Shown here in pieces: positions 4,899 to 13,748 of a stretch of 64,000 nt of DNA. The notes beneath the pieces were generated by a model. That model was given only the letters and a program-made list of their open reading frames with translations. It ran no database searches and was not told where the DNA came from. Positions within the stretch are counted from its first letter, which is position 1. Every line of letters starts with the position of its first letter. The translations under genes and the position numbers were made by a program. The stretch comes from Anaerolineaceae bacterium (lineage in GTDB: Bacteria; Chloroflexota; Anaerolineae; Anaerolineales; Anaerolineaceae), in the NCBI GenBank assembly GCA_020845515.1, contig JADLFQ010000076.1, positions 17,862-81,861 on the forward strand, given 5' to 3'.

Positions 4899-5219
4899 GT
4901 GGCATATCTCCTTGGATGGCCGAATAATTTGATGGATGGCTTAAATCATATCACGGAGTGCAAGTAAATTCAGCTTGATAGACAGGGTCATTAATATTTA
5001 TTTTGTCATATTCGGATCATTGCCAGCTTGAAGGATATGCTGAACGGACGTCCACTGATAGCGGGCCGCGAATTCAGCGGGATGGGGCGGGGGCCGGCTT
5101 CTTTAAGGGGCTGGCCAACTGAGTGACCTGGCCGAACTTACGCGCTAACCCGCCAAACGCCTGACCTTTTGCCTGAATCTCAAGCGCCGGGTGTCAGAAA
5201 GGCATATCATTCTCATAAT

Positions 5220-5284
5220 TTGTACTATTATCACGGTACAATAACCTTGATTTAAAACATTTTTGTACTATAATATTGGTACAA
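5220..5284 (+). promoter_or_regulatory. two palindromic operator-like sites TTGTAC-N10-GTACAA (5220-5241, 5263-5284) over a TTGATT-16-TATAAT promoter
   Basis: Both half-site pairs are exact; offset 43 bp; the -10 TATAAT (5269-5274) lies in the spacer of the second site, -35 TTGATT at 5247-5252. Confidence 0.75.
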
Positions 5285-5309
5285 TATCTTATATCCTATG
5301 AGGAGCATT

Positions 5310-5744
5310 ATGGCACCAAAAACAGTTCGTGTAGATGCAGTACGTGTAGATGGTTTTAAGATTGAGGCAACCGCCCGGCAGCACAAAGCATTCGTTGATC
5401 AACCCGCCGCCGGCGGCGGAACGGATACCGGCCCCACCCCTTTGGAATATCTGTTCATCTCCCTGGCGGGGTGCGTGGCGACCATCGGCGCCATCATTGC
5501 CAACCAGCGCAAGCTCGATCTGCGCAATATTGAAGTATCGGTTGAAGGCGATCTGGATACCGATGGTTTCATGGGAAAAAACGCCGACCTTCGCGTGGGT
5601 TTTACCAGCATCCGCGTGCACACCAAAATTGATGCGGATATGAGCCAGGAAGAGAAAGAGCAGTTTGTACGCGACATTGACGCCCGCTGCCCGATCTCGG
5701 ACAACCTCGTCCGCGTCAGCGCGGTTGACTTTACTGTCGAGTAA
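5310..5744 (+). CDS. OsmC family protein
   Basis: OsmC-like pattern: GGTDTGPTPLEYLFISLAGCVATIGAIIANQRKLDLRNIEVSVEGDLD ... CPISDNLVR. Start taken at MAPKT; ORF track start is 5298. Confidence 0.85.
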   Translation: MAPKTVRVDAVRVDGFKIEATARQHKAFVDQPAAGGGTDTGPTPLEYLFISLAGCVATIGAIIANQRKLDLRNIEVSVEGDLDTDGFMGKNADLRVGFTSIRVHTKIDADMSQEEKEQFVRDIDARCPISDNLVRVSAVDFTVE

Positions 5745-5748
5745 AGCG

Positions 5749-6798
5749 ATGAAATCTTCCGCTGCAGATCCTGCCGATGCCAATCAGCAGCTTCCCGCTG
5801 AAATTCTGGTGGGGCGCAGGCTTCGAGAGCTGCGCACCAGGCGGGGATATCCATTGCGGGCGTTGGCGGATCGCAGCGGCTTAAATGTAAACACCCTCAG
5901 CATGGTTGAGAACGGCAAGTCTTCGCCTTCGGTGAGCACGCTGCAACAACTGGCGGCAGCTTTGGATGTGCCGCTCTCTTCGTTCTTTGAATCGGAGCCG
6001 GTGGAAAGGCAGGTGGTCTTTACGCCGGCGGAGTGCCGCCCGCAGACGGCTTTTGGCAGTCTCCAATTGGGAAACCTGGGAAAAGACCTGCGGGGCAATG
6101 CGGTGCAGCCGTTCCTGGTTGTATTAAAGCCCGGCAAGGGCAGCGGCGACCGGATGATCGTGCATACAGGTCATGAATTTGTCTACTGCCTGAACGGTGT
6201 GCTGCGTTACAGGATCGAAGAACAAGAATATTTCTTAAAGGCGGGCGACAGCCTGGTCTTTGAAGCTCACCTGCCGCACTGTTGGGAAAATAAGGGGGAT
6301 GTGGACGCTCAAATTTTGCTCGTGTTTCACCCGGCTGACCGGAGGGAAGAACGGGGAGGCCGGCATTTTTTGCATCATTATCTAAAAAAGGAATTGACGA
6401 TGAAAATAGCAGCCATTACGGATGACGGCAAGACGATCAGCCAACATTTTGGTCGTGCCACGCATTATTTGGTGTTGACGATTGAAGAAGGTAAAATCGT
6501 CAACCGGGAAATGCGCGCCAAGATTGGGCACAACCAGTACAGTGCAGAACCGCACGTTGAAGAGTCGCACGGGCCAGGGCATGGCCGCGATGCCGCCTCG
6601 CACAACAGGCATGCCAACATGGCCGAGGCAATCGCGGATTGCAAGGCGCTGCTGTGCGGCGGGATGGGCATGGGCGCGTATGAGAGCATGCGCCGCCTCG
6701 ACATTCAGCCGGTTGTTACCACCCTGAGCGATATTGAAGAGGCCGCCCAGGCGTTTATTGACGGCAAGCTGATTGACCATACCGAACTGCTGCACTAA
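5749..6798 (+). CDS. XRE-family HTH + cupin regulator fused to a NifX/NifB-type (dinitrogenase Fe-Mo cofactor binding) domain
   Basis: HTH (LRELRTRRGYPLRALADRSGLNVNTLSMVENGKSSPSVSTLQQLAAALDVPLSSFF), cupin (HTGHEFVYCLNGVLRYRIEEQEYFLKAGDSLVFEAHLPHCWEN), then MKIAAITDDGKTISQHFGRATHYLVLTIEEGKIV...LCGGMGMGAYESMRRLDIQPVVT in one frame. Confidence 0.8.
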   Translation: MKSSAADPADANQQLPAEILVGRRLRELRTRRGYPLRALADRSGLNVNTLSMVENGKSSPSVSTLQQLAAALDVPLSSFFESEPVERQVVFTPAECRPQTAFGSLQLGNLGKDLRGNAVQPFLVVLKPGKGSGDRMIVHTGHEFVYCLNGVLRYRIEEQEYFLKAGDSLVFEAHLPHCWENKGDVDAQILLVFHPADRREERGGRHFLHHYLKKELTMKIAAITDDGKTISQHFGRATHYLVLTIEEGKIVNREMRAKIGHNQYSAEPHVEESHGPGHGRDAASHNRHANMAEAIADCKALLCGGMGMGAYESMRRLDIQPVVTTLSDIEEAAQAFIDGKLIDHTELLH

Positions 6799-6890: not shown

Positions 6891-7742
6891 CTAAGCCTTT
6901 ACCTTTTTCTTTGAAAAGCGAGCCATAATCCGGTTTTGAAAAAAGCTGAGCGCAGCCAGGATGACGGCAAAATAGCCCACGTAGGCAATTAACTGCGCCA
7001 GAGAGGGGCTGTCGGAATATCCAAAAATTGCATGAAGTGCCTGTCCCAGCACGGTTGTTTTCTGATTCAGGATTGGCTTAAGGTTATAAAGATCAGGGAT
7101 CAGCGCGGGCACCCAACCGATTTCATTCAGCTCACCAATGCCGTGAGCGAACAAACCGGCAGCAAACAGGATGAGAAGAACGTTGGTCACCTGGAAGAAA
7201 GTGCCCAAAGGCAGCCGGCGGGTGGAAGAGAATAAGACCCAGCCTGACACAACGGCGCCTGCAAGCCCCAACAGCGCCCCTGTGAACGTCTGCAGGGCGT
7301 CGGCGGCGAACCCGGCCGCCGTCAGGAAGATCGCCAGTTCAGTTCCCTCCCGCACGACCGTTAAAAAGGAAACACCAAAAAGCGCCCGGCGGCTGTTCTT
7401 TTCGGCGGCTTGATGCACATCACTTTCAATTTGACTCTTCAGCGTGGGGGCATGACTTTTCATCCAGAAGATCATCCAGGTGAGCAGACCGGCGGCAAAA
7501 AGCATGATCAGCCCTTCAAAGGCCGGCTCAGCCGCACCTTCAAGGCTAAGCCCAATAATATGCAGGACTACGGCAATCAGGATGCTGACAATCACAGCAG
7601 CAACCACACCAGCCCAGAGCGGGGCGGACAAATCATCCCGCTTTGTCTTTTTCAAAGCGCCCAGCAGCAACCCAATGACGAGAGTGGCTTCGACGCCTTC
7701 ACGCAAGGCAAGGAAGAAACTTGAAATCATGGAGAACCTCAT
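6891..7742 (-). CDS. FTR1 family iron permease
   Basis: 283 aa, multi-TM with REGVEATL and REGTE motifs typical of FTR1/EfeU. Confidence 0.88.
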   Translation of the reverse strand: MRFSMISSFFLALREGVEATLVIGLLLGALKKTKRDDLSAPLWAGVVAAVIVSILIAVVLHIIGLSLEGAAEPAFEGLIMLFAAGLLTWMIFWMKSHAPTLKSQIESDVHQAAEKNSRRALFGVSFLTVVREGTELAIFLTAAGFAADALQTFTGALLGLAGAVVSGWVLFSSTRRLPLGTFFQVTNVLLILFAAGLFAHGIGELNEIGWVPALIPDLYNLKPILNQKTTVLGQALHAIFGYSDSPSLAQLIAYVGYFAVILAALSFFQNRIMARFSKKKVKA

Positions 7743-12524: not shown

Positions 12525-13748
12525 ATGGGCTCTCCGGCGATTATTTCGCAAACCTTCACGGCCTTGCGCCACCGCAATTATCGTATCTATTTGATTGGCC
12601 AGGTTTTTTCCCTGAGCGGAACGTGGATGCAATTTGCCGCGCAGGGCTATCTGTTGTATGAACTGACGAAATCCCCGGCGTATCTGGGGTATGTTGCTTT
12701 TATTGACGGGGTTCCCGCATGGCTGTTCACCTTGTACGGTGGGATCATCGCAGACCGCATCCCGCGCCGGACACTGCTGCTGATCACCCAATCGTTCATG
12801 ATGACATTGGCGTTCATCTTGAGCGCCCTGGTCTTTACTGACCTGGTGGCGCCCTGGCATATCCTTGTGCTGGCTTTTTTTCTCGGGGTGGGGAATGCGT
12901 TTGAAGCCCCGGCGCGGCAGTCGTTCACGATTGAACTGGTGACCCGCGAAGACTTGACGAACGCCATTTCCCTCAATGCGGCCATGTTCAACGCCGCGAA
13001 TATTGTTGGCCCGGCAATCGGCGGGTTGGTCTATGCATGGGTGGGGCCGGGCTGGTGCTTCAGCATTAATGGACTTTCATTTATCGCCGTGATCCTGGCA
13101 CTGGTGTTGATCCGGCTGCCGCGCTTTACCCCCCCTCCCCAAAGAAACATAATGATGGATGTCCAAGAGGGATTTCAGTTTATCCGCCAGGATGCAACCG
13201 TGCGCTTTTTGATTCTTGCGGTCGGAATAGTCTCCATATTTTCATTTTCCCTGCAAACGCTCATCCCGGCCTGGGCAACCAACGTGCTGAAGGGCGATGT
13301 GCGCACCAATGGCATGCTGCTGGCGGCGCGCGGCGCAGGCGCGCTGATGGGCGCGCTGACGCTGGCTTCGCTCTCCGGGCGGAACATCCGCGGAAAGCTC
13401 TGGCTGATCGGAAGTTTTGTCCTTCCATTGGGAATGTTGTCATTCTCCTGGGTTCGGAATTTGCCCATTTCGCTGATCATGCTGGCAACAACTGGATGGG
13501 CGATGATGGCGCTGGCGAACAACACCAATGCGCTGATTCAGTCGGGGGTGCCGGACCACCTGCGCGGCCGCGTGATGGGAATTTATACGCTGGTTTTCCT
13601 GGGGTTTGCTCCGGTCGGCTCTCTGATTATCGGATGGCTTGCAACCTGGCTGGGGGAGCCGGCGGCGCTGCAAATTTTCGCGGCGGTCCTGTTGACTTTT
13701 GCAGTTTGGGTGACCCTGCGGCACCCGGAAATACGGGCGTTACGTTAG
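12525..13748 (+). CDS. MFS transporter (EntS/DUF894-like)
   Basis: 407 aa, 12-TM pattern; FRHRNYRIYLIGQVFSLSGTWMQ-like N-terminus, GGIIADRIPRRTLL. Confidence 0.85.
   Translation: MGSPAIISQTFTALRHRNYRIYLIGQVFSLSGTWMQFAAQGYLLYELTKSPAYLGYVAFIDGVPAWLFTLYGGIIADRIPRRTLLLITQSFMMTLAFILSALVFTDLVAPWHILVLAFFLGVGNAFEAPARQSFTIELVTREDLTNAISLNAAMFNAANIVGPAIGGLVYAWVGPGWCFSINGLSFIAVILALVLIRLPRFTPPPQRNIMMDVQEGFQFIRQDATVRFLILAVGIVSIFSFSLQTLIPAWATNVLKGDVRTNGMLLAARGAGALMGALTLASLSGRNIRGKLWLIGSFVLPLGMLSFSWVRNLPISLIMLATTGWAMMALANNTNALIQSGVPDHLRGRVMGIYTLVFLGFAPVGSLIIGWLATWLGEPAALQIFAAVLLTFAVWVTLRHPEIRALR

Follow-up and report, generated by a model that had tools for sequence, protein, structure and literature searches.

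Two copies of one inverted repeat lie over the promoter of an osmC-like gene in an Anaerolineaceae bacterium, and they raise the question of which protein reads them and to what effect. In the window, that is, the whole stretch of 64,000 nucleotides that we analysed, the best answer appears to be a local one. The region 5220-5284 is a predicted two-site operator of the XRE-cupin regulator whose gene stands second in the osmC operon, and this protein would thereby repress its own operon; judging from the sequence comparisons described below, we give this reading a probability of about 0.82.

Two palindromes over the osmC promoter

The initial annotation described two exact TTGTAC-N10-GTACAA palindromes about four helical turns apart, the first just upstream of the -35 box and the second embedding the -10 box. 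This layout was recovered in full (Table 1): the palindromes are 43 bp apart from start to start, the distal one ends 5 bp before TTGATT, and TATAAT falls within the proximal one. The combination TTGATT-16-TATAAT (5247-5274) is the best promoter match between positions 4900 and 7000, and from it a transcription start near 5281 can be predicted. Edge to edge, the gap between the two operators is about 20 bp and therefore direct contact of the DNA-binding domains is unlikely.

Table 1. Positions of the predicted control elements and genes of the osmC operon in the window.
Feature	Position	Strand	Remarks
Distal operator TTGTACTATTATCACGGTACAA	5220-5241	.	Exact palindromic ends; 16-bp core 5223-5238
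-35 box TTGATT	5247-5252	+	In the gap between the operators; 10/12 together with the -10 box
Proximal operator TTGTACTATAATATTGGTACAA	5263-5284	.	Overlies the -10 box; 16-bp core 5266-5281
-10 box TATAAT	5269-5274	+	Inside the proximal operator; 16-bp spacer from the -35 box
Shine-Dalgarno GAGGAG of osmC	5300-5305	+	Read in the sequence
osmC-like gene, first of the operon	5310-5744	+	144 aa; Pfam OsmC PF02566, 74.9 bits (cut-off 27.5)
Regulator gene, second of the operon	5749-6798	+	349 aa; fusion of XRE HTH, cupin and NifX-like (Nitro_FeMo-Co) domains
Internal Shine-Dalgarno AAGGA	6388-6392	+	Weaker than in most orthologues
Probable free NifX-like product	6400-6798	+	In-frame ATG at 6400, Met218 of the fusion

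A genome-wide scan for the pattern, proposed with the initial annotation, covered the 2.95-Mb assembly (~85% complete) and returned these two exact copies and no third. Allowing up to two mismatches, 0.78 matches are expected per 64-kb window (mean of shuffled windows), whereas the real window contains three, two of them exact and one with two mismatches. The proximal site is the sole match in the genome to the perfect core TACYAWWATWWTRGTA; the right half-core of the distal site is degenerate. Regarding the surroundings, an FTR1-type iron permease gene lies convergently downstream of the operon (6891-7742), and in locus L116 the gene downstream of the operon encodes a ZIP-family metal transporter (1645-2499).

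Conservation of the sites and their association with the regulator

Conservation upstream of orthologues was the critical test set beforehand. Taking the window's proximal site alone as query and searching up to 250 bp upstream (p<0.01 against 300 dinucleotide shuffles), we found that 49 of the 67 related loci tested have a significant match upstream of the regulator operon, counting loci that are related to each other against null models that ignore phylogeny. The motif is kept in 26 of the 32 fused orthologous loci, as well as in 23 of the 35 more distant XRE-cupin loci. Most of the named relatives belong to the Anaerolineaceae, among them Levilinea saccharolytica and Leptolinea species. For about nine regulators that share the recognition helix, the operator match fails the p<0.01 threshold; among the sub-threshold loci, L044, L098 and L119 nonetheless have a recognisable site. 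In quite a few of the loci the distal site is either weak or was not found.

Regarding the motif itself, the palindromes stood, but the freely variable N10 of the original description did not. Across 51 nonredundant sites the information is concentrated in TACTATAATWWTRGTA, the flanks carry almost none, and the outer TTG/CAA is weaker and variable. The exact TTGTAC-N10-GTACAA pattern misses most orthologous sites and we have therefore redefined the motif by its conserved core.

The distance between the sites is conserved too. The best second site was scored with a symmetrised matrix from the proximal sites, 22-90 bp upstream, in 51 nonredundant loci, and the null consisted of 200 rounds of resampled upstream sequences in which the loci are treated as unrelated. 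This site fell at -42/-43 in 30 loci (null mean 1.6, maximum 6), at -31 to -33 in 12 (null mean 2.1, maximum 8) and at -34 to -41 in none; leaving the window aside, the 26 fused loci contributed 16 and 4 cases to the first two groups. The four turns noticed in the window are therefore a recurrent spacing. The two spacing classes are those that same-face binding predicts, three or four turns apart. Conserved phasing is also compatible with cooperativity, although it is no proof of it, and it could instead reflect placement relative to RNA polymerase. Two unfused XRE-cupin relatives, L042 (4840-4894) and L064 (5689-5743), have operators 33 bp apart, that is, three turns.

Across loci the operator accompanies the XRE-cupin regulator rather than osmC. 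Where osmC is present the site lies before it, where osmC is absent the site lies directly before the regulator, and the operator is also found with unfused XRE-cupin relatives. In locus L036 (4692-4869) the last ~34 codons of osmC are left between operator and regulator, and upstream of the regulator start at 12784 in locus L039 there is probably a frameshifted osmC remnant; in such cases osmC appears to be undergoing loss while operator and regulator stay together. The recognition helix of the window's regulator reads N46-V-N-T-L-S. The operator was significant with 48 of the 57 regulators that have N at the first residue of this helix and with 1 of the 10 that have A, G or S there (Fisher p=1e-5 for N, uncorrected for relatedness). 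The association with the regulator, the phasing and the helix correlation thus support the proposal, made at the outset, that the XRE-cupin-NifX protein is the likely ligand.

A wider regulon was sought throughout the genome and was not found: there are 21 two-mismatch core matches compared with 48 for a control pattern, so near matches to the core elsewhere are no commoner than matches to the control. In other genomes, exact core matches before unrelated genes (L115, L118, L121, L123, L125, L126, L128, L129) were taken as chance or unproven. In L120 (2649-2664) and L124 (1851-1908) the operator precedes a cluster of NifX-like and MinD/ferredoxin-type ATPase genes, divergent from a PadR-like gene and with no XRE-cupin gene nearby; L124 has two sites, 42 bp apart. 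These two genomes suggest occasional targets in trans, and in the window's genome (~85% complete) no NifX-MinD cluster was found as such a target. Beside a regulator locus, L135 (1-987) gives repetitive translations (PTHVGVFP, EHPHVCGDN) such as a CRISPR array would yield.

The regulator and its probable second product

The domain call XRE-cupin-NifX was right, as all three domains exceed their Pfam cut-offs: HTH_3 with 55.6 bits, Cupin_2 with 63.1 bits and Nitro_FeMo-Co (PF02579, residues 226-337) with 55.2 bits against a cut-off of 26.3. The last is the only PF02579 match found in the ~85% complete assembly. In the alignment of homologues H139, E143 and H177 of the cupin are invariant, and so are H233, H261, H278, H285, H288, C298 and C303 of the NifX-like domain, a set of residues that is compatible with the binding of a metal or an Fe-S cluster. 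A His-rich insert of low model confidence (residues 261-288, window 6529-6612) in this domain is a candidate metal site. The AlphaFold model (mean pLDDT 76.6, pTM 0.39) is fair for single domains and is not a guide to their arrangement. A plasmid search gave one distant NifX-like match and no other, and in the literature searched we found no account of the motif, of the domain fusion or of XRE-cupin/OsmC control.

A second product of the regulator gene is probable, namely a free NifX-like protein translated from an internal ATG. The conserved internal Shine-Dalgarno and ATG were seen in fused ORFs of the window (6388-6402) and of loci in the ranges L035-L049 and L098-L157. Met218 is invariant in 18 aligned sequences, and in all 33 alignable fused ORFs, the window included, GGAG or AGGA stands 4-16 bases before the ATG at which the NifX-like domain begins. 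The stronger AGGAG or GGAGG precedes it in 29 of these 33, versus ~1% at other in-frame positions. Furthermore, the [KQR]E dipeptide at the internal Shine-Dalgarno is encoded NNGGAG in 28 of 29 cases, compared with 9 of 112 at other places in these ORFs (Fisher p=1e-20), so the synonymous sites are constrained. Relatives carry the XRE-cupin and NifX-like parts as separate genes. Taken together, these observations make a free NifX-like protein likely. We would put forward more tentatively, as an idea rather doubtful than probable, that two products are made on purpose: a full repressor with a NifX-like sensor and a free NifX-like domain that would share its cluster or metal and tune the repressor, whether by antagonising it, by joining it as a partner subunit or by donating the cluster, one autoregulated transcript setting both sensor and cargo.

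Mechanism, rival readings and known systems

Binding, repression and cooperativity by the window's own regulator are what we infer, and the mechanism would be as follows. One regulator dimer would sit on each 14-16-bp palindrome. The dimer on the proximal site would cover the -10 box and exclude RNA polymerase, and a second one, four turns upstream on the same DNA face by the -35 box, would strengthen occupancy, contact between the dimers being made probably through the cupin or NifX parts. A signal received at the cupin (H139, E143, H177), at the NifX-like domain or at both would release the protein, and osmC and the regulator's own gene would be switched on. As for the nature of this signal, iron, Fe-S or redox control is plausible, and our guess would be the status of iron, another metal, Fe-S or peroxide.

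The distal site could instead be activating or have a dual function, with activation from beside the -35 box and repression only when the -10 site is filled. It does adjoin the -35 box at fixed distances, and RNA polymerase could be what sets the spacing classes. Nevertheless, the better-conserved site covers the -10 box, which is hard to square with activation, and the characterised XRE-cupins repress (PMC7901475), so we consider this unlikely. Slightly less likely still is that the main or an additional ligand of the operator is another XRE-cupin from this genome, an unfused protein ~53% identical to the regulator (locus L054 on contig C18), which would mean trans or shared control. Its helix, NINTLSLIE, is nearly identical to the NVNTLSMVE of the fused regulator, its locus has no operator of its own and paralogues in other genomes bear the same operator. 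It is the only rival ligand that can be named from the genome, since the four other XRE-cupins recovered have different recognition helices. But most XRE-cupins control promoters close to their own genes (PMC7901475), and in most genomes it is the operon of the fused regulator that the site accompanies.

That a regulator of an unrelated family binds the sites seems very improbable, since the site follows the XRE-cupin regulator across genomes with differing neighbours and correlates with its recognition helix, and the genome yielded no wider regulon. We give hardly any credit to the idea that the symmetry of the palindromes arose by chance in an AT-rich promoter that has a good -10 box. TATAAT does form part of the conserved core and occupies the same operator position in most orthologous loci, but the half-site opposite it, WWTRGTA, is strongly conserved too, whereas the flanks are not; this half lies outside the -10 box, and promoter function by itself would not keep it. 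Moreover, the two exact 12-base matches 43 bp apart are found nowhere else in the genome. The conservation data thus already contradict chance symmetry, and we return to the local operator of the XRE-cupin regulator.

Among known systems, the closest in layout are the Pseudomonas XRE-cupin regulators PsdR, PauR and ErfA, which repress locally from palindromic sites within core promoters, and such proteins mostly have one or two targets beside the regulator gene, some being autoregulated (PMC7901475). Common to them and to the window's system are an XRE HTH followed by a cupin sensor domain and, as predicted here, a palindrome in the core promoter of the adjacent gene. Few local targets seem to be another common trait, as only the twin site stands out in the ~85% complete assembly. 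By analogy with their promoter-core sites, local targets, palindromes and autoregulation, autorepression through occlusion of the -10 box would be expected. Unlike the two-domain Pseudomonas proteins, the window's protein continues past the cupin into the NifX-like domain (226-337), and we have therefore filed it as a variant architecture of the XRE-cupin local repressors; it also differs in the conserved internal start, the twin phased sites, the operator sequence and the phylum, Chloroflexota.

The best NCBIfam match of the HTH-cupin part is PuuR of E. coli (PRK09943), which has no NifX-like domain; identity with this equivalog was rejected, the 85.4 bits being far under its cut-off of 211. 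The XRE HTH is related in sequence to those of SinR and DdrO, although SinR, DdrO and 434-type proteins differ in effector domains and base sequence and we claim no membership. The conserved core, ACYA-N6-TRGT, has the 14-bp layout of 434-type operators. An HTH plus cupin layout is shared with HppE, the hydroxypropylphosphonate epoxidase (PDB 1zz6), by profile match (E=9.5e-5) and fold match, although the global TM-score is weak and HppE is an enzyme without a NifX-like domain. The invariant H-x3-E...H of the regulator resembles the iron triad of HppE in pattern.

The Nitro_FeMo-Co domain is shared with the Di-Nase/NifX proteins (MrpORP, orange protein, MTH1175); in MrpORP this type of domain binds an Fe-S cluster (PMC6345978). 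The window's version differs from theirs in being fused to a regulator, in its His-rich insert and in having HFGRA in place of CXHFGHCE. As regards two products from one regulatory gene, AerR has two isoforms differing by 41 N-terminal residues (PMC6199135); both systems would have two N-terminal variants, but in the window's gene the short form would amount to a whole domain standing by itself.

Thus, the system can be seen as a variant of the XRE-cupin local repressors, set apart by its NifX-like domain, twin phased sites and probable second product. With this analysis, a widespread Anaerolineaceae family of XRE-cupin-NifX proteins, of which we found no description in the literature searched, has a defined operator and a likely regulator. 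As members exist in the cultured relatives Levilinea saccharolytica and Leptolinea tardivitalis, experimental study is possible, and with spacings that fall into two discrete classes, of three or four turns, the phasing can be tested directly. Furthermore, the internal start hints at an overlooked means of making a sensor domain that is both attached to a repressor and free of it.
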